Below, piece by piece: positions 1 through 10,694 of a DNA stretch of 64,000 bases. The notes beneath the pieces were generated by a model. It had not been told where the DNA came from and searched no databases. It saw only the letters and a program-made list of their open reading frames with translations. The position numbers and the translations under genes were made by a program. The DNA is taken from NCBI RefSeq assembly GCF_009731355.2, contig NZ_AP022810.1, positions 2,880,001-2,944,000 on the forward strand, given 5' to 3'. This DNA comes from Desulfuromonas sp. AOP6. Its GTDB lineage: Bacteria > Desulfobacterota > Desulfuromonadia > Desulfuromonadales > SZUA-540. The stretch's first letter is position 1. The number at the start of each line of letters is the position of its first letter.

Positions 1-3
1 GCA

Positions 4-36
4 TAAAAAAGCCCCGAGGTTGATACCCCGAGGCTT
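4..36 (-). terminator. Intrinsic terminator ending the nif operon
   Basis: Read on the minus strand, a 12-bp stem (AAGCCTCGGGGT / ACCTCGGGGCTT with two G-U pairs, loop ATCA) is followed by a run of Ts. The plus strand would have A-C mismatches at the same places, so only minus-strand transcripts form the perfect stem. It lies about 200 bases past the last nif-type gene. Between it and that gene (37-238) I see a short GAGCTC inverted repeat but no convincing gene. Confidence 0.8.
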
Positions 37-238
37 CATTGCCGAGAGAGAAAATCCGGTACGTCCTTGTACCTGTAAATTGATTTAATCCATAGAATTG
101 CGAATTGCATGCCAAGCTGTGGGGTGTCTAAAACAGGGGATGGGGAGTCCCCTTTCGGCTTTTCCTGCCCATACCAGAGGCAACAATGACAAAACGCGAT
201 CGTTTTTTGTGCAGCAACAAAGAGAGCTCCTTTCGAGC

Positions 239-1519: not shown

Positions 1520-2983
1520 CTACCGCATCATCTCGAACCACTGGTCCTCGCAGGTCTCGTCTTTGATCTCAAGGAATTTATTGGCGATCATCGTCAGCAT
1601 GCTGATCGCGCCGTTGTAGCCGATCACCGGGGTGCGGTGCAGGTTGACGCGGTCGATGATGGGGAAGCCGATACGGAACAGGGGAATCCCGGCGTCACGT
1701 GCCGCCCACTTGGCGTGGGTGTCGCCGATGATGCCGTCGACCGGATCGGTGACCAGCAGAGAACGCATGTGCCAGAGATCCTTGTTGATGTAGCAGGTAC
1801 ATCCTTCGCCGAACGGTGACGAGGCGAGCAGCGCGTCCATCTCCTTCTGGAACTTTTTGGTTGCCCGTGAGCAGAGCACATGCCAGGGACGGGCGCCCAT
1901 CTCGAGCAGGAAGCTGACAATGCCGATCAGATAGTCGGGGTCACCAGCCACGGCGAACTTTCGGCCGTGCAGGTACTGGTGGGCGTCGGTCATGGCGTCG
2001 ACCGCCAGGGCGCGTTCCTTTTTGAGCACCTCCGGAATCGGCTTGTCAAACAGGGCGCTCAGCTTGAGCAACAGCTCGTCGGTCTTTTTGATGCCGAAGG
2101 GCATCGGCAGCACCGCCTTCTCGCCAGTGTACTCGGATTCAATCCATTTCATGGTATTGACCGTCGCGTACTTCTGGAAGGAGATGGTCGCCTTGCCGTT
2201 GATCGACTCGGCGGCATCTTCAAGCTTGGTGCCGCCAGGGTAGAGCTTGTACTCGCCGTCGCAGCCCGAATCGAAGACATCGGAGACGTCAGCGAGCATG
2301 GTGTAGGGGATACCCATCAGCTCGCAAATCCGCTTGTACTCACGCAGGTTACCGACGTTGCCGTCGAAACCGGGGATGATGTTGAGTTTGCCGGTACATT
2401 TGCCCTCGACGCTCTTCCCCTCGGTGAGGGTCTGCAGAATACTCAGCAGCATCGCGTCGTAACCGTGGATGTGGGTGCCATTGAAGCTCGGGGTGTTGGC
2501 GTAGGGGGTCGGCACCTCTTCCGGCAGGTGCCCCTGCAGCTTGGCGTTCTTGATAAAGGCGGTCAGGTCGTCGCCGATGACCTCCGGCATACAGGTGGTA
2601 TAGACGGGGATCATCTTCGGCTTGTAGAGGGCGTAGGCGTTCGCCAGACCCTCGAACAGGTTGTTCTGGCCGCCGAACACGGCGCCGTCCTCGGTCATGG
2701 CGTCACAGGTCGCCGCCGCCGGTTCGCGGTAGTGGCGGGAAAAAGTGCTGCGGAAATAGGAGGCACAGCCCTGGGAGCCGTGCACGAACGGCAGGGCGCC
2801 CTCGAAGCCGGTCGCCACCATCTGTGCGCCGAGTGGCTGGCAGGCATGGGCCGGGTTGACCACCAGGGCGGTGCGGGCAAAGTTCTTCTCTTTATACTCT
2901 TCCGAATTGATCCATTCCTTGACCCGGTCGATCTCTGACTCTGGGGTCTCGGTCACAAATTTGATGGCTGTTTCTGCGCTCAT
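1520..2983 (-). CDS. nifK: Nitrogenase MoFe protein beta chain
   Basis: A 487-residue nitrogenase molybdenum-iron protein beta subunit; with NifD it forms the alpha2-beta2 component 1 that reduces dinitrogen. The three cysteines that hold the P-cluster are in place: C48 (NPAHACQPLG), C73 (HGSQGCASYF) and C131 (TTCMPEVIGDD). TPSFNGTHIHGYD near residue 165 is also conserved. The ATG at 2983 is preceded by AGGAGA; a longer reading frame to 3088 reads through a repeat element and is rejected. It is translated after nifD, but with a 108-base gap that holds repeat copy B, wider than the usual nifD-nifK spacing. Confidence 0.96.
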   Translation of the reverse strand: MSAETAIKFVTETPESEIDRVKEWINSEEYKEKNFARTALVVNPAHACQPLGAQMVATGFEGALPFVHGSQGCASYFRSTFSRHYREPAAATCDAMTEDGAVFGGQNNLFEGLANAYALYKPKMIPVYTTCMPEVIGDDLTAFIKNAKLQGHLPEEVPTPYANTPSFNGTHIHGYDAMLLSILQTLTEGKSVEGKCTGKLNIIPGFDGNVGNLREYKRICELMGIPYTMLADVSDVFDSGCDGEYKLYPGGTKLEDAAESINGKATISFQKYATVNTMKWIESEYTGEKAVLPMPFGIKKTDELLLKLSALFDKPIPEVLKKERALAVDAMTDAHQYLHGRKFAVAGDPDYLIGIVSFLLEMGARPWHVLCSRATKKFQKEMDALLASSPFGEGCTCYINKDLWHMRSLLVTDPVDGIIGDTHAKWAARDAGIPLFRIGFPIIDRVNLHRTPVIGYNGAISMLTMIANKFLEIKDETCEDQWFEMMR

Positions 2984-3013
2984 GGCGTAAATCTCCTGTA
3001 TAACGGGGTGACT

Positions 3014-3078
3014 GTAGGGGCGCAATTCATTGCGCCCTTTTTGTTTTCGAAACCGGGCGTGATAAATCACGCCCCTAC
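3014..3078. repeat. Dispersed palindromic repeat, copy B
   Basis: A 65-bp element with inverted ends GTAGGGGCG / CGCCCCTAC. Inside are two near-perfect palindromes, GGGCGCAATtcATTGCGCCC and GGGCGTGATaaATCACGCCC, joined by a T-rich linker. It fills most of the nifD-nifK spacer. It shares its ends and both palindromes with copies A and C. Confidence 0.75.
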
Positions 3079-3091
3079 ATCGCGTCACGGT

Positions 3092-4534
3092 TTAAAACGG
3101 GCTTTTGACCAATCCCCAGGTCGGGCTGTTGATCGCCATGTCGATATCACGGGCGAAGATCTTGAACCCTTCGTAGCCGTGATACGGGCCGGAGTAGTCC
3201 CAGCTGTGCATCTGCCGGAAGGGGATGCCCGCTTTCTGGAACACGTACTTCTCCTTGATACCGCTGCCGACCAGGTCGGGCTTGAACTCTTCGACGAACT
3301 TTTCCAGCTCGAACTCGGAGACGTCGTCGTAGATCAGGGTTCCCTTGGCCATCTCCGGAGCGGTGCGATCGTAGTCGTCCTGGTGGGCGAACTCGTACCC
3401 CGCGCCGGTGATCTGGATGCCGAGGTCCTCGTAAGCGCCGATGGTGTGTCGCGGGCGCAGGCCGCCGACGAACAGCATGGCGGTCTTGCCGTCGAGGCGC
3501 GGCTTGTACTCGGCGATCACCTCGTCCATCTCCTTGCGGTACTTCTTGATCACTTTTTCGACGTTCTTCTTGATCTTGTCGTCGAAGCGCTCGGCGATGG
3601 CACGCAGGCTCTCCTCGATCTTGGTGGGGCCGAAGAAGTTGTACTCGAGCCAGGGGATACCCCACTTCTCTTCCATGACCTTGCACATATAGTTCATCGA
3701 ACGATAGCAGTGGATCAGGTTGAGCTTCACCGCGTGAGTGGCGCCGATCTTCTCGACCTCGCCATCGCCGGTCCAGACCGACTTGACGTTGAGACCGATC
3801 TCTTCAAGGATCGGCTTGGCCGCCCAGACGTCGCCGCCGATGTTGTAGTCGCCGATCAGGGCTACGTCGTAGGGCCCGGGCTCCTCCCGGTACTGATACT
3901 TGCCGATGATGTGGTCACGGATCGAGTCGTTGGAGATATGGTGTCCAAGCGACTGGGAAACGCCGCGAAAACCCTCGCAGTTACAGGGGACCACCAGCTT
4001 GTCGAGTTCGATTTCCATTTTTTTGGCGACGGCGTTGATGTCGTCACCGATCAGGCCGACCGGGCACTCGGAGAGGATCGACATCCCCTTGTTGAGCGGA
4101 AAGAGTTCATCGGCCTCACGTAGCAGGGTTTCAAGTTTCTTGTCGCCGCCATAGACGATGTCACGCTCCTGGAAGTCGGAGGTGAAGTCCATCGGGAAGG
4201 AGGTGACGCCCGGGATGCCCTGCATCAGGTTACGACGGGTTCCCCAGCTGTAGACACCGCAGCCGATCGGACCGTGGGAGACGTGGACCATGTCGCGGAT
4301 CGGTCCCCAGACCACGCCCTTGGCACCGGCGTAGGCGCAGCCGCGCTGGCTCATAACGCCCGGAACGACCTTCTTGTTCGACTTGACCGCGCAGGGGGAG
4401 GCACTCGGCTCGTTGGCGCCGAGGTGCGGCGCTCGCTTCTTGGCGGCCTTGGCCGGCATTTCAGCCAGGGTCTCCGCGATCAGTTTTTCGGTTTTTTCCT
4501 TTGTCACGCCCTTGATGGGCTTTCTCTCAGCCAT
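3092..4534 (-). CDS. nifD: Nitrogenase MoFe protein alpha chain
   Basis: A 480-residue nitrogenase MoFe protein alpha subunit. The P-cluster cysteines C66 (RGCAYAGAK), C92 ([10 protein letters not shown]) and C157 (SECPVG) are present. So are the two FeMo-co ligands, C276 ([11 protein letters not shown]) and H443 ([13 protein letters not shown]), so this is a catalytic chain and not a NifE-like scaffold. The length matches molybdenum nitrogenases. AAAGGAG precedes the ATG. It is the second gene of nifHDK; the 88-base gap to nifH shows no gene. Confidence 0.97.
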
Positions 4535-4622: not shown

Positions 4623-5603
<981 letters not shown>

Positions 5604-5690
5604 CTAAAATGACAGAGCCCCATTCGGAAAATCCGGATGGGGCGCCAGTGCCCGGCGGCTCCGTCATGGGACCGCTATAAGTTCTTGCAG

Positions 5691-5728
5691 AAAAAATAAA
5701 ACGCCCGGAGGGGATATCCCGCCGGGCG
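5691..5728 (-). terminator. Leader terminator upstream of nifH
   Basis: On the minus strand the stem CGCCCGG / CCGGGCG, extended inside by GGGATATCCC, is followed by TTTTATTTTTT. It lies about 190 bases before the nifH start and after the putative promoter, so it would stop nif transcription unless disarmed. Its 5' arm overlaps the second hexaloop hairpin. Confidence 0.8.
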
Positions 5729-5766
5729 CCGTTGCCTGCTTTACTCAAGACACCGCTTTGTGTCTC
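5725..5766 (-). promoter_or_regulatory. ANTAR-type dual hairpin in the nifH leader
   Basis: Minus strand, 5' to 3': hairpin P1 is GAGACAC-[AAAGCG]-GTGTCTT (5766-5747). Hairpin P2 is GGC-[AACGGC]-GCC (5736-5725), about ten bases later. Both loops are hexanucleotides with A at position 1 and G at position 4, the published signature of ANTAR-domain binding sites. The 3' arm of P2 uses bases of the terminator stem, so P2 and terminator are mutually exclusive. In Geobacter sulfurreducens the ANTAR regulator GnfR controls nif genes by antitermination, which fits. The regulator itself is not in this window. P2 has only three uninterrupted pairs here, but the same sequence recurs with five pairs at 8845-8860. 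Confidence 0.75.
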
Positions 5767-5866
5767 GGAAAAAGTTTTTGGTTTTGTCTTCCTTTCTGCA
5801 GAAGGCATGCCAGATGTGCATCGGAGTCCCTCACCTCGGGTGGCTGATCCCTTCTGAACCGCTTTA

Positions 5867-5884
5867 TTGCAAGCCATAGTCCAA
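5867..5884 (-). promoter_or_regulatory. Candidate sigma-54 promoter for nifH
   Basis: On the minus strand TTGGACTATGGCTTGCAA has GG and GC separated by exactly ten bases, as needed for -24/-12 elements, and a good -12 TTGCA. The -24 box departs from TGGCAC at three inner positions. It would start a leader of about 355 bases that contains the hexaloop hairpins and terminator. I did not find a clear TGT-N10-ACA activator site upstream. Confidence 0.5.
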
Positions 5885-6111: not shown

Positions 6112-7326
6112 ATGGACATGGCTGTCGAATCCCTGGTTCATAGCGGGGACGTACTCTTTCTCATGCTCGGGGCGGTCATGGTCTTTGCCATGCACGCCGG
6201 ATTTGCTTTTCTCGAAGTCGGCACCGTCCGGCGGAAAAGCCAGGTCAATGCCTTCGTCAAGATTCTTACCGACTGGTCGGTATCGACGGTGGTCTATTTT
6301 GCCGTCGGCTTTCCTATCGCCTATGGCATTCATTTCTTCCACCCGGCCGCGGATTTGCTTGCCGCGGATCAGGGCTACCAACTGGTACGATTCTTCTTTC
6401 TCCTCTGCTTCGCCGCCTGCATACCCGCCATCATTTCCGGCGGCATTGCCGAGCGGGCCAAGTTCTGGCCGCAGGTAGCGGCCGGAGCCGTTTTTGCCGC
6501 GGTGATCTATCCCCTGTTCGAGTCGCTGATCTGGGGGCAGAACAGCTCTGGTCTTCAGGCTTTTTTCGAGCAGAATCTCGGAGCCCCTTTCCATGATTTT
6601 GCCGGCAGCGTGGTGGTTCATTCCATGGGAGGGTGGCTGGCCCTGCCCGCTATCATCATCCTTGGCGCCCGCAAGGGACGCTTTGTCAAAGGACAGAGCC
6701 GGGCCATTCCTATCAGCAACATTCCCTTTCTCGCGCTGGGCAGCTGGATTCTGGCCGTCGGCTGGTTCGGCTTCAACGTCATGAGCGCCCAATCCCTTAC
6801 CGGCATATCGGGGCTGGTCGCCCTGAATTCGCTGATGGCCATGGTTGGCGGCGTCCTCTTCGCCCTGGTCGCCGGTCGCAACGACCCCGGCTTCGCCCAC
6901 AATGGCGCTCTGGCCGGCCTGATTGCCATCTGTGCCGGATCGGACATTCTGCATCCGATCGCCGCCTTTGTGGTCGGTGGCATCGGCGCCCTGATTTTTG
7001 TTTACGGGTTCCAGTGGGAACAGGAAAAACTCAAGATCGACGACGTGCTCGGGGTCTGGCCGCTGCACGGCATCATCGGCACCTGGGGAGGCATTGCCGC
7101 CGGCATTTTCGGCTACCCCTTGCTGGGCGGCCTGGGAGGCGTCAGTTTCCTGTCCCAGGTGGCGGGCAGTGTACTGGCCATTTTCTGGGCTGTCGCCATG
7201 GGCACCTTGGTCTACGGAGCCCTCAAGAAAATATCCGGCATCCGCCTCCAGGAGGAGGAGGAGTTCCGTGGCGCCGACCTTTCCATCCACCGCATCGATG
7301 CCTATCCGGAAGAACACGTCAAATAA
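6112..7326 (+). CDS. amtB: Ammonium transporter AmtB
   Basis: A 404-residue inner-membrane ammonium channel with about eleven hydrophobic segments. The pore twin histidines are recognisable in FAGSVVVHSMGGW (near 169) and WPLHGIIGTWGG (near 316). RBS AAGGAGG precedes the ATG by eight bases. It scavenges ammonium and, in the family, reports nitrogen status through a bound PII protein. No glnK/glnB gene flanks it here, unlike the usual glnK-amtB pair. The cytoplasmic tail (RIDAYPEEHVK) is short. It is divergent from nifH and convergent with the FKBP gene, 36 bases away. Confidence 0.95.
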   Translation: MDMAVESLVHSGDVLFLMLGAVMVFAMHAGFAFLEVGTVRRKSQVNAFVKILTDWSVSTVVYFAVGFPIAYGIHFFHPAADLLAADQGYQLVRFFFLLCFAACIPAIISGGIAERAKFWPQVAAGAVFAAVIYPLFESLIWGQNSSGLQAFFEQNLGAPFHDFAGSVVVHSMGGWLALPAIIILGARKGRFVKGQSRAIPISNIPFLALGSWILAVGWFGFNVMSAQSLTGISGLVALNSLMAMVGGVLFALVAGRNDPGFAHNGALAGLIAICAGSDILHPIAAFVVGGIGALIFVYGFQWEQEKLKIDDVLGVWPLHGIIGTWGGIAAGIFGYPLLGGLGGVSFLSQVAGSVLAIFWAVAMGTLVYGALKKISGIRLQEEEEFRGADLSIHRIDAYPEEHVK

Positions 7327-8230: not shown

Positions 8231-8524
8231 CTACCCCTTGAGAATGTGACGCATGGTCTCGTAGAGGGCATCGTAGACCTCCTCGCGAGTGGAGATAAAG
8301 TCGGGGATGTCGTTGTTGAGAATATCCTCAAGATGCTCGAGAACCAGCCCATCATCGGACTGCAGGGCATCCATTACCGCCGTGAACATGGGGAGTACTT
8401 CGTACAGATCATAGCGGTCAAAGGGCCGAGGATCCGGTTTGCCGGTGAACTTGGGTTGCTCCCGGGTTTCTTTTTTACGGGGATAGCGATACTTCAGGTC
8501 CGAGGGTTTGATCATAACGCCCAT
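8231..8524 (-). CDS. Conserved-looking 97-residue protein of unknown function
   Basis: A small acidic-and-basic protein with no family I recognise. A polar N-terminus ([29 protein letters not shown], residues about 14-42) is followed by an apparently helical part ([33 protein letters not shown], then [15 protein letters not shown]). There are no cysteines, membrane segments or signal peptide, so it is cytosolic. GGAGG precedes the start. It sits between a small HTH protein and the macro-domain protein, both within a few bases, so it is very probably co-translated with them. It could be a partner or adaptor protein. Confidence 0.7.
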
Positions 8525-8542
8525 GAGAGGTCCTCCTTGTGG

Positions 8543-8785
8543 TCAGGATCCGCAACCGGAGCAACCGGATTTCTTGCAATGCGGGACAATTTTTGGGGTG
8601 AGACTGTCAGGGTCACCAAGGCAGGCAGCGATGCTTTCGCGCGTCACCTGCCAGACGCCGTCGATTTCCTTTCCGGAAAGCAGGTTCTGCTTGAGCATCA
8701 TCAGGATACGCACCGGGGTGGTGTTCAGTTCCCGGGCGGCTTGAGCCACGGTCAGCCGGGAAGACGGACAGGATGTTTCGGTCAT
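8543..8785 (-). CDS. Small helix-turn-helix protein with Cys-rich tail
   Basis: An 80-residue protein. Residues about 10-35 (RLTVAQAARELNTTPVRILMMLKQNLL) look like the helix-turn-helix of excisionase/MerR-like DNA-binding domains, followed by KEIDGVWQVTRESIAACL, as in excisionase-like modules that end in a short beta wing. The last 12 residues (HCKKSGCSGCGS) hold three cysteines that could bind a metal or cluster. AAGGAG precedes the ATG. It is the first gene after the leader terminator at 8809-8849. It may be a small regulator or a nitrogen-fixation accessory protein; DNA binding is inference. Confidence 0.7.
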   Translation of the reverse strand: MTETSCPSSRLTVAQAARELNTTPVRILMMLKQNLLSGKEIDGVWQVTRESIAACLGDPDSLTPKIVPHCKKSGCSGCGS

Positions 8786-8808
8786 GGGTTATCTCCTTGT
8801 CAGCTGCT

Positions 8809-8849
8809 AAAAAAAAAGCCTGCACGAAACCACAAAGGTCTCTGCAGGC
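8809..8849 (-). terminator. Leader terminator between draG and the HTH gene
   Basis: On the minus strand GCCTGCA pairs with TGCAGGC, with an inner GAGACC / GGTTTC extension, followed by nine Ts. It lies 24 bases before the HTH gene start and about 60 bases after the draG stop. Its 5' arm GCCTG is also the 3' arm of the hexaloop hairpin at 8845-8860, so only one can form. Confidence 0.85.
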
Positions 8850-8860
8850 GCCATTGCCTG
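8845..8860 (-). promoter_or_regulatory. ANTAR-type hexaloop hairpin overlapping the terminator
   Basis: On the minus strand CAGGC-[AATGGC]-GCCTG: five perfect pairs and a hexaloop with A1 and G4. It shares CAGGCAA(C/T)GGCGCC with the nifH leader. Its 3' arm is the 5' arm of the terminator, the arrangement expected for P2 of an ANTAR antiterminator. I could not find a clean P1 with the same loop rule in the 50 bases upstream. Transcription could come from draT-draG read-through or a promoter I cannot see. Confidence 0.7.
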
Positions 8861-8912
8861 TATCTTCGTTCGCCTTGACCGGACGATTTATCGAGGCCAC
8901 CAGGGGTGCGGA

Positions 8913-9827
8913 CTAAAATCCCCGCTGCGCCAGAGGGGAGAGCAGCGTAAGTTTTCTGGCCTTCTCTTCCACCTCCACACGGGTGGCACGATCGAGCTGC
9001 TTAAGCCACCTGGCAGGAATCGAGGCGGGCCCGTAGAAGGCTCCGGCGATCATGCCCGCGATAGCTCCCGTGGTGTCGGCATCCCCTCCCTGATTGACCA
9101 CGCCGATCAGGCAGTCCTCAAAGGTGGCGGTGGTGAAGAGATAGTGGAACACCGTCTGCATCGTCTCCACCACATAGCCGCTGGCGCGTCCTCGGTAGGT
9201 ACTGAAACGGAAGGTGGGGAACTCGCTGCAGAGCGGCTGGGTTTCTCCGTGCATCTCAAAGCGGTCGGCCCCGAGCAAGGCCTTCTGTACCATCTTTCCG
9301 GCAGTCAGGCACGCCGCGTCAGACAGCGGGTGGTGGTGCGTCAGATGGGCCTGTTCCAGGGTGCAGCGCCGAAACAGATCCTCGTCACCCAGGGTGTAGA
9401 GCGCGACCGGAGCCATTCTCATCACCGCCCCGTTTCCGGCGTCCCAATCATTCTGAGGACGCTGGATGGTGCCGTTGAGCATATAATCCCGGATCCCCTT
9501 ACGCACCGTGGCGCCGATGTCCACCGGCTTGCCACGCATCCAGGCGACGAATTGGTCGGCAATTCCCGTCAGGTCCCAGGTCCCTGCTTCTTCGATGGCC
9601 CGGGCGATACACAGGGACATCTCCGTATCGTCCGTCACCTGCCCCGCCTTGAGGCCGAGCCAGCCACCGCCAATAATCTTACGGTGCACCCCGTATCGGT
9701 GGGTGATCTCCGCCGGGGTCATGAACTCGGTGGTAGCGCCCAGGGCGTCACCAATGGCCACCCCCAGAAAAGCTCCTCTGGCCCTCTCCAGGATCGCCTC
9801 CATGGCACGGCTGCTCTGTTCCGTCAT
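8913..9827 (-). CDS. draG: ADP-ribosyl-dinitrogenase reductase glycohydrolase
   Basis: A 304-residue ADP-ribosylglycohydrolase. The di-manganese site is marked by QVTDDTEMSL near residue 63 and GGDADTTGAIAGM near 250, and the N-terminus RARGAFLGVAIGDALGATTEF is typical of DraG. It removes ADP-ribose from the NifH arginine and so reactivates nitrogenase when ammonium or darkness/energy stress ends. AGGGGAG precedes the ATG. It follows draT with a 12-base gap, so both are probably one transcript. DraG is regulated in other bacteria by AmtB and PII, and amtB lies 1.6 kb away. Confidence 0.95.
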   Translation of the reverse strand: MTEQSSRAMEAILERARGAFLGVAIGDALGATTEFMTPAEITHRYGVHRKIIGGGWLGLKAGQVTDDTEMSLCIARAIEEAGTWDLTGIADQFVAWMRGKPVDIGATVRKGIRDYMLNGTIQRPQNDWDAGNGAVMRMAPVALYTLGDEDLFRRCTLEQAHLTHHHPLSDAACLTAGKMVQKALLGADRFEMHGETQPLCSEFPTFRFSTYRGRASGYVVETMQTVFHYLFTTATFEDCLIGVVNQGGDADTTGAIAGMIAGAFYGPASIPARWLKQLDRATRVEVEEKARKLTLLSPLAQRGF

Positions 9828-9839
9828 GCGCTCCCCTGT

Positions 9840-10694
9840 TCAGCCGCCGGTAAGAATCTTGATCTCAAAGTCCCCGCCGATGACCAGGACTTCTTCTTCG
9901 CCCTTAAGCAGCGCCCTGGGAAGCAGATCACACCGGAAAAAGATTTTGGGCGTCGGCACCTCGACCTGCATGACCCGTGTACCAAACTCCCAGGCCCGCT
10001 CAAAATCGGTGGTGAAAGAGGTCAGGTTGTTCAACCGGATCAAATGCCGGTTCTTGCCCAAGGGCTTGAGAATGCGCTGCTCTGAAAAATCCTGCACGCC
10101 GCGATAGAGGGTGCAGTGCCCCAGCCCGCCTTTTTCCCTCTCCAGCTCATATTGACTGAACTCATAGAGCAGATCGAGCTGCAGTAACAGAGCACTGGTG
10201 CGCGCCGAGCCCTTCATGCGTTCGGTCAGGTAACGGAAATAGGCCTCGCCATGGATATCCTCGATCGGCCCTTTGTGATAGGTGGGGGGCAGACCGATGC
10301 GACTTTCCACCCAGCCTTTGAGAACGGCCCCCTCGATGGAGTTGGCGTCGAACATCCATCCCCGCAGAAAACGCAGATAGCTGTTTTTCAGGCTTTTACG
10401 TCCTCTTTCCGTCGCCTGTTGCTCCCACTGATGCAGCTGAAAGCTGACATCCATGTAGTCATGAAACTGCAGACCGCGCTCTTCACGGGTTTCCAGACAA
10501 GCCAACTGGTCAAAGAGCCGACGGTGCGCCGCGCGCACTCCCTGAATCTCCAGCCGCTGCGGATGGCTGTTGAAGGCCGGGGAGGCGATCACCCAGGGAG
10601 GCAGATTACATCGATTGATGGCTGCGGACGAAAAAGCCACAGAACGCTCCCATGCGATAAAAAAACAGCCAGTGCGTGCTGAACCTTTAATCAC
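9840..10694 (-). CDS. draT: NAD-dinitrogenase reductase ADP-ribosyltransferase
   Basis: A DraT-family enzyme that transfers ADP-ribose from NAD to an arginine of NifH (R104 here). Family blocks include CNLPPWVIASPAFNSHPQRLEIQGVR near 29-54, FLRGWMFDANSIEGAVLKGWVESRIGLPPTYHK near 109-142, and LNNLTSFTTDFERAWEFG. The N-terminus is uncertain: the GTG at 10694 gives 284 residues, near the family length, but no ribosome binding site is visible. A GGCACG-N4-TTGAA match at 10760-10775 on the minus strand resembles a -24/-12 promoter, but lacks the -12 GC, so I do not list it separately. Confidence 0.92.
   Translation of the reverse strand: MIKGSARTGCFFIAWERSVAFSSAAINRCNLPPWVIASPAFNSHPQRLEIQGVRAAHRRLFDQLACLETREERGLQFHDYMDVSFQLHQWEQQATERGRKSLKNSYLRFLRGWMFDANSIEGAVLKGWVESRIGLPPTYHKGPIEDIHGEAYFRYLTERMKGSARTSALLLQLDLLYEFSQYELEREKGGLGHCTLYRGVQDFSEQRILKPLGKNRHLIRLNNLTSFTTDFERAWEFGTRVMQVEVPTPKIFFRCDLLPRALLKGEEEVLVIGGDFEIKILTGG

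Follow-up and report, generated by a model that had tools for sequence, protein, structure and literature searches.

Two ANTAR-type attenuators in series predicted in the nifH leader of Desulfuromonas sp. AOP6

The nifHDK locus and its promoter

The window analyzed here is a stretch of 64,000 nucleotides from Desulfuromonas sp. AOP6, in which the nitrogenase structural genes lie on the minus strand, downstream of the leader that is the subject of this work. The genes and the best promoter candidate, in window coordinates, are as follows.

1520..3088, minus strand: nifK (TIGR01286)
3092..4534, minus strand: nifD (TIGR01282)
4623..5501, minus strand: nifH (TIGR01287, 468 bits)
5797..5812, minus strand: putative sigma-54 (-24/-12) promoter, TGGCATGCCTTCTGCA, matching 15 of 16 positions of the consensus used, with a predicted +1 near 5786

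Upstream of the leader, an ammonium transporter gene (6112-7326) is oriented divergently. The original prediction had placed a -24/-12 promoter at the 5884 end of the leader, a limit that fits TGGACTATGGCTTGCA at 5883-5868, which matches the consensus used at 13 of 16 positions. The best site, however, lies about 70 nt further downstream, at 5812-5797. In G001, a genome of the same genus, the downstream site keeps its 15/16 match and the upstream one falls to 12. Sites matching at 13 or more positions were found within 600 nt in 59 of the 62 nifH leaders compared, as against 49 of 620 mononucleotide-shuffled leaders. Furthermore, in 44 of the 47 leaders that possess the first P2 hairpin described below, such a site stands 56-105 nt upstream of that hairpin (in one case 165 nt). 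Because this spacing matches the position of 5812-5797, the downstream candidate is taken to be the promoter, and the transcript probably starts near 5786.

The first putative attenuator

Downstream of the putative promoter lie two hairpins and a terminator, together referred to as site 1.

5746..5767, minus strand: P1, an 8-bp hairpin with the hexaloop AAAGCG, CGAGACAC-AAAGCG-GTGTCTTG (-9.7 kcal/mol)
5725..5736, minus strand: P2, the putative antiterminator, a hexaloop hairpin GGC-AACGGC-GCC with a 3-bp stem (-2.8 kcal/mol)
5691..5730, minus strand: terminator T1, a hairpin at 5730-5702 followed by a U-tract at 5701-5691 (-23.2 kcal/mol)

ANTAR substrates have been described as dual hexaloops, each loop beginning with A and having G as its fourth letter (A1/G4), of which the second overlaps a terminator, and in the eut targets of E. 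faecalis the linker between P1 and P2 measures 5-12 nt (PMC3369931). Site 1 has each of these properties. Its two hairpins, with stems of 8 and 3 bp where at least 3 bp were called for, both carry 6-nt loops; A1 and G4 are present in AAAGCG as well as in AACGGC; the linker is 9 nt long (5745-5737); and the 5' arm of T1 begins with the GCC of P2 (5727-5725), making P2 and T1 mutually exclusive. The original prediction was accurate in this respect, having placed P1, P2 and an intrinsic terminator overlapping P2 on this strand and at this position, with the A1/G4 rule obeyed by both loops.

When the stretch 5866-5691 is folded, P1 and T1 appear in both the minimum-energy and the centroid structures. 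Given the large difference in energy between P2 and T1, P2 would be expected to win only if bound by protein or kinetically. The leader folds only slightly better than its shuffled versions (z = -1.83, with 9 of 200 dinucleotide shuffles as good), and the P2 sequence GGCANNGNNGCC is weak evidence by itself, as it has 510 copies in the genome. Both observations would suit a reading in which these are ordinary terminators or insulators that carry hexaloops by chance and are not subject to ANTAR regulation. A search with Rfam models, at gathering and at lax thresholds, produced no credible match to the window's leader, and the gathering score was reached in none of six leader loci, the window's own among them. 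Since the fold energy is so little out of the ordinary, the case rests on the comparison with relatives.

Conservation of the leader among relatives

A nifH match at E below 1e-40 was obtained in 66 of the 98 genomes searched, and leaders were taken from 62 nifH loci in 61 genomes, the window's own included; G042 contributed two loci, and G009, G061, G082, G086 and G090 contributed none. By a single filter, P2 with an overlapping terminator was found in 54 of these 62 leaders of the order. A hexaloop P1 with A or G at position 1 and G at position 4 is present in 37 of the 54, at least one of which (L009) is probably spurious. Among the eight leaders without a site by this filter, two (L031 and L038) show a P2 by eye. 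A first, stricter motif filter had returned a dual hexaloop in 24 of the 62 leaders and an overlapping terminator in 10; the later filters were looser, and the shuffle controls apply to the last, looser one only. In these controls, P2 with a terminator appeared in none of 310 dinucleotide-shuffled leaders, and on the opposite strand of the leaders it appeared in 2 of 62, neither with a P1.

The combination was also sought in 80 further nifH loci from named records, sorted by title (24, 2 and 54). It is present in 20 of the 24 leaders titled as Desulfuromonas-, Pelobacter- or Geobacter-like, some of which (such as L120 and L124) seem already counted among the genomes above, in one of the two titled only as Deltaproteobacteria, and in none of the 54 titled as other groups. 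Leaders of the Geobacter kind mostly possess one P2, usually GGC-AAAGGC-GCC, with a terminator and no evident hexaloop P1; L140, L143 and L149 resemble these but fell below the filter.

For the comparison of loop letters, rows were picked by GGC-N6-GCC and a terminator, with the loop itself ignored. G4 is present in 92 of the 92 rows so obtained and A1 in 83. Removal of three rows as overlapping or chance, all of which have G4 and none A1, left 47 site-1 and 42 site-2 rows, with G4 in 89 of 89 and A1 in 83 of 89. In the site-1 P2 loop, A1 is found in 44 of 47 rows, and A2 and G4 in all 47. The relatives thus keep, in the great majority of rows and in 54 of 62 leaders respectively, the A1/G4 letters and the P2-terminator overlap on which the original prediction had made itself dependent. 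The rule is looser for the loop of P1: all 33 aligned rows have G at position 4, but at position 1 there are 14 with A and 19 with G.

The alignments used for covariation comprise 33 of the 47 site-1 rows and 36 of the 42 site-2 rows, rows whose P1 was hard to line up having been omitted (some with good hexaloops, others without any), a choice that favors structure. In site-1 P1, three of the five inner pairs are changed on both sides, 94.5% of cells are paired, and none of 500 shuffles reaches the observed score. The outer pairs of T1 are 91.9% paired and their covariation score lies above that of all shuffles, with two of six pairs changed on both sides against 1.7 in shuffles, which is no excess. 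The P2 stem is invariant in the alignment because the stem itself was a selection criterion.

The reading of site 1 as an ANTAR target is supported overall, but within the genus P1 is imperfect in both other genomes, which speaks against it. G001 keeps a hexaloop, AAAGCA, on a stem with an A.A mismatch, and the site-1 P1 of G002 is GCACAACGGTTGTGC, which RNAfold draws as a triloop and which bears the letters CA-ACGGT-TG, of the type seen in the second attenuator below. A strict hexaloop P1 on an unbroken stem occurs in one of the three same-genus genomes.

The ANTAR protein

The genome contains a single ANTAR gene, encoding a protein of 187 aa with REC and ANTAR domains that matches EutV at E = 4e-32. 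Of the 11 RNA-contact residues of EutV compared, eight are identical in this protein (R142, K143, K147, K149, E160, Y164, M172 and R175), and R168, N173 and R177 differ. Among 31 ANTAR proteins, 21 have Y, 9 have F and one has H at position 164. The EutV-RNA structure, in which G4 stacks on Tyr164, led to a new definition of the minimal site, one hexaloop alone, and to the suggestion that a methionine plug sets the loop size (PMC8934654).

An ANTAR gene is present in all 66 genomes with detectable nifH and in 15 of the 32 without it (Fisher p = 1.2e-10, for genomes that are not phylogenetically independent); conversely, all 17 genomes without an ANTAR gene are without detectable nifH. This co-occurrence, the covariation of P1, the presence of G4 in every one of the rows picked regardless of their loop, and the absence of P2 with a terminator from both the shuffled leaders and the leaders of other groups together make hexaloops arising by chance in ordinary terminators a very improbable explanation. 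The ANTAR reading of the original prediction is favored instead, by the retention of A1/G4, the covarying P1, the single REC-ANTAR gene and the accompaniment of nifH by ANTAR in 66 of 66 genomes.

A second putative attenuator downstream of T1

As to its extent, the leader had been described with one attenuator. A second one, at 5675-5606, and a further hairpin, P3, at 5576-5563, had been missed. The second attenuator (site 2) begins 15 nt past the U-tract of T1.

5655..5675, minus strand: P1', a 21-nt hairpin GCGGT.CC-ATGAC-GG.GCCGC of the pentaloop class, covarying in relatives
5641..5652, minus strand: P2', a hexaloop hairpin GGC-ACTGGC-GCC, loop letters conserved in relatives
5606..5643, minus strand: terminator T2, its 5' arm common with P2' and its U-tract, CTCTGTCATTTT, weak; covarying in relatives

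P2' is an A1/G4 hexaloop overlapping the terminator, as in site 1. P1' is not an A1/G4 hexaloop and belongs here to a pentaloop/heptaloop class, and the linker between P1' and P2' is 2 nt (5654-5653), outside the range of 5-12 nt. The minimum-energy fold of the full leader does not contain P1' as drawn.

At least two elements of P2 and terminator are found in 35 of the 62 leaders; in L053 and L060 alike, two of the elements counted are real and one more is overlapping and spurious. A pentaloop-class P1' is found in 34 leaders, and both a hexaloop P1 and a P1' in 24. The nifH leader of G013 (L025) holds two site-2-type elements in series, at -248 and -164, and by the filter no site-1 element.

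Over 36 of the 42 site-2 rows, five of the seven pairs of P1' are changed on both sides, in 27 cells against 4.0 expected, and none of 500 shuffles reaches the score; in T2, both-side changes are seen in six of 12 pairs. The outer five pairs of P1' covary and are followed by a frequent mismatch, a C-G pair and then a C-G or A-U pair that closes the loop A-N-G-R-N, with four loop-region positions (C20, A22, G24 and G28 of the first row) invariant over the 36 rows. The P2' loop has G4 in 42 of 42 rows and A1 in 39 of 42. The linker is 2-5 nt long in most lineages, below or at the edge of the range of the E. faecalis eut targets.

Models of site 2 (R1) and site 1 (R2) were built with the terminator brackets displaced and the P1 pairs correct. 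With R1, applied to 45 first-look candidates in each genome, 52 of the 98 genomes gave at least one place better than E = 1e-6, for a total of 53 places. These places adjoin nifH in 51 of the 52, the exception being G094, in which nifH was not detected, and the best place away from nifH reaches E = 2.0e-6 (G076). The match in G094 (G094:C272:5989-6073, minus strand) is strong, in a genome that yielded no nifH and no ANTAR gene; the assembly, 86% complete with 8% contamination, is probably incomplete. Seventeen of the 52 genomes lay outside the training set, and the places in 15 of these (all but G090 and G094) were viewed. Eight show a P1' with a pentaloop closed by CC or CA (G010, G025, G034, G036, G070, G071, G078 and G079). 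In five genomes of the f19 family (G042, G051, G065, G069 and G073) a drawing of P1' is possible that has a bulge and, closed by C-G, a hexaloop AAGGTT or AAAGTT; the drawing by RNAfold differs. The place in G074 is of the site-1 type, and that in G017 has a hairpin and a terminator without a GGC-N6-GCC P2'.

In four further rows (L012, L013, L015 and L023), the letters of P1' give an octaloop with A1 and G4. Together with the f19 hexaloop drawings and the P1'-type letters in the site-1 P1 of G002, these octaloops suggest that the P1 and P1' loop types interchange between lineages and that they appear to be versions of one recognition element.

Which factor reads site 2 can be considered in the light of these results. 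Were site 1 the only ANTAR switch, P1'-P2'-T2 might answer another factor, such as an RNA-binding protein, a small RNA or a metabolite, that recognizes the P1' loop, and nifH would then integrate two signals after initiation. The usual pentaloop (C-C/A-A-N-G-R-N-G/T-G) with its four invariant positions would be consistent with this, as would a linker short for a canonical dual hexaloop and the fact that the best P1' matches adjoin nifH, whereas one genome can carry the site-1 type in several places. We nonetheless regard a separate factor as unlikely, if worth serious attention, in view of the canonical hexaloop with which P2' overlaps T2 and of the seeming interchange of the loop types. These same two features point to the ANTAR protein as the probable reader of both sites. 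A comparison of P1' by eye with the CsrA consensus, which we take to be CANGGANG, was set aside, as the loop in most rows is without an A after GG.

T2 is followed by CTCTGTCATTTTAG, which has 5 T in the 12-nt tail scored and ranks among the eight poorest in T of the 42 rows; the U-tract of T2 is weak in G001 too. Such a tail raises the question as to whether site 2, while functional in relatives, has decayed here and left T1 as the only terminator that matters in this genome. Against decay, the hairpins, the P2' loop and the T2 stem are all intact both here and in G001, where the P2' loop reads AACGGC in place of ACTGGC and A1 and G4 are kept. Decay is thus the improbable case, although a credible one, and a working site 2 remains the preferred reading.

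A hairpin near the nifH start codon

Downstream of T2 and close to the start of nifH lies a further element.

5563..5576, minus strand: P3, CATC-AACGGG-GATG, an A1/G4 hexaloop hairpin without a U-tract, followed by a conserved CCGCC (to 5558)

The 9-mer GATGCCGCC is held by 36 of the 62 leaders, and the six letters before it read A-A-N-G-N-N (A1, A2 and G4) in 36 of 36, with stems of 2-5 pairs; these rows were selected on the 9-mer and not on the loop, and plain sequence conservation could also explain the loop letters. The minimum-energy fold of the P3 stretch favors an overlapping hairpin. As a motif restricted to nifH, P3 was rejected: 59 of the 98 genomes hold TCAANGNNGATGCCGCC, at 91 places in all, many of these distant from nifH, with 3 for the reversed-pattern control. 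Because TCAANGNNGATGCCGCC is so widespread, only the position of P3 and the conservation of its loop in the leaders are informative. ANTAR control of translation near the start has been reported in actinobacteria (PMC8164766).

The conserved GATGCCGCC contains an AUG, from which a leader peptide beginning, for example, M-P-P could be translated and could drive ribosome-mediated attenuation. The frame is not conserved beyond MPP, however, with 15 frames ending after 3-28 codons and 21 having no stop in the stretch read, and the AUG lies downstream of both terminators. Attenuation of this kind is therefore extremely improbable. The leader-peptide reading of AUGCCGCC was rejected, its frame not being conserved.

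Other ANTAR-type leaders

Two further elements of this kind lie in the window.

1..81, minus strand: ANTAR-type leader before a radical-SAM gene (putative nifB), running 4 bases past the window edge (R2, 41.4 bits)
8804..8888, minus strand: P2 hexaloop hairpin GGC-AATGGC-GCC with a terminator and no clear P1, after draG and upstream of a small ORF at 8543-8785 (R2, 20.9 bits)

The first comprises P1 (GGTAC-AAGGAC-GTACC), P2 (GGC-AATGAA-GCC) and a terminator, and the gene behind it, in which a Radical_SAM domain is seen, is taken to be nifB from its place. With 150 of 1609 first-look candidates scored, R2 matches above 40 bits in this genome numbered two, the nifH and nifB leaders. The element at 8804..8888 scores no better than two probably spurious places, at 2322257 (21.1 bits), within an ORF, and at 1270940 (20.9 bits), just past a response-regulator ORF; a score of 20-22 bits is thus not evidence by itself. 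This element is followed by two small uncharacterized ORFs, of 80 and 97 aa (window 8231-8785, minus strand), and by eye similar ORFs follow site-1 matches in G022 (L235) and G027 (L242).

Upstream of the window, at L002:8809-11407 (minus strand), nifV, a GNAT acetyltransferase-like gene and the REC-ANTAR gene stand in a row behind an ANTAR-like leader (R2, 22.2 bits; P1 CCAGC-GAGGAC-GCTGG, P2 GGC-AACGAC-GCC), an arrangement that would make the ANTAR regulator read through its own switch. As a general feature such autoregulation found no support: 30 ANTAR loci of relatives, for each of which about 1 kb upstream was available (33 nt in one), gave only two loose and unconvincing matches. A P-II-like gene, so named from its first residues, has a leader (L119, G000:C1:1048800-1049100, plus strand) with a sigma-54-like site, an ANTAR-like hexaloop and a strong terminator; it scores 16.7 bits with R1, and shows P2 GGC-AAAGGC-GCC and, by eye, P1 GGAC-AAAGAC-GTTC.

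In relatives, R2 matches number as many as seven in a single genome, and 32 of 38 genomes have one or more at E<=0.01. Eight of 20 stretches taken from matches away from nifH begin with a NifB-like protein, called by profile in L229 (E = 2.1e-94, under the curated cut-off) and by the letters HPCFG...GRIHL or ARIHL in the other seven. Three of the 20 begin with a protein bearing AxVIFWEKPGCKGN, identified in L236 by the profile TIGR01616 (nitrogenase-associated) and in two by letters.

Relation to known systems and proposed mechanism

In Geobacter sulfurreducens, the nif genes are reportedly controlled by GnfK/GnfR and GnfL/GnfM, and Ueki and Lovley are said to have proposed in 2010 that sigma-54 initiation is followed there by antitermination through a REC-ANTAR response regulator. 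The "double lock" put forward for the present leader fits its sequence, from the promoter match to the leader elements, but reportedly amounts to this earlier Geobacter model and is not new. The likeness to the GnfR system reportedly lies in sigma-54 initiation combined with REC-ANTAR antitermination, the promoter here being a sequence match only. Unlike the Geobacteraceae leaders compared, which have one P2 and terminator and mostly no evident P1, the present leader has two attenuators.

An ANTAR nif leader is already known in kind from Pelobacter carbinolicus, for which Ramesh et al. (2012, PMC3369931) predicted ANTAR substrates in three transcription units of nitrogenase genes. The same paper reports 13 or more attenuation systems, spread over six units, for Desulfotomaculum acetoxidans. 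The present leader shares with the Pelobacter regulon the dual A1/G4 hexaloops and the P2-terminator overlap, and the text portions compared (PMC3369931) describe no additional nifH attenuator in which P1 is other than a hexaloop. With the EutV targets of E. faecalis eut (PMC3369931, PMC8934654) it has in common A1/G4 hexaloops in P1 and P2, an intrinsic terminator that P2 overlaps, the presence of several attenuators at a single locus and most of the ANTAR contact residues. Unlike in those targets, as far as these texts describe them, site 2 here has another P1' loop class and a 2-nt linker, and position 1 of P1 is often G in relatives. No description of a second nifH attenuator was recognized in the literature searched, a partial collection of texts without figures or supplements; within the scope of these searches, neither the P3 hexaloop nor the second site that follows in series, with a conserved P1' of its own, has been described.

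We consider it likely that expression of nifHDK is controlled twice in its leader, by sigma-54-dependent initiation and then by ANTAR antitermination at two serial terminators. From the elements described above we infer the following course. Transcription would start at the sigma-54 promoter just upstream and, by default, RNA polymerase would stop at T1. The single REC-ANTAR protein, the presumed counterpart of GnfR, would be activated under nitrogen limitation and bind the hexaloop of P1 and then P2. P2 would thereby retain the GCC required by T1, T1 could not form, and transcription would go on. P1', P2' and T2 would repeat this logic downstream, probably read by the same protein, and with one terminator following the other, repression of nifH in the presence of fixed nitrogen would be multiplied.

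An extended form of this mechanism, which we hold to be distinctly unlikely, would have one ANTAR dimer handed along P1, P2, P1', P2' and P3 and, once past the two terminators, affecting translation or the stability of the mRNA near the nifH start, with P1' a new ANTAR-recognized loop class, of 5 or 7 nt, selected at nifH. If so, nitrogenase would need a sustained and not a momentary nitrogen starvation.

Nitrogenase is an expensive enzyme, and these anaerobic bacteria appear to control it in a way unlike the textbook case of NifA/NifL. Near nifHDK lie draG and draT (window 8913-10694, minus strand), whose ADP-ribosylation control of nitrogenase would add another layer, after translation. The leader itself is compact, with initiation and each of the two terminators open to separate study, and site 2 offers a natural way of asking whether an ANTAR protein will accept a loop that is not a hexaloop.
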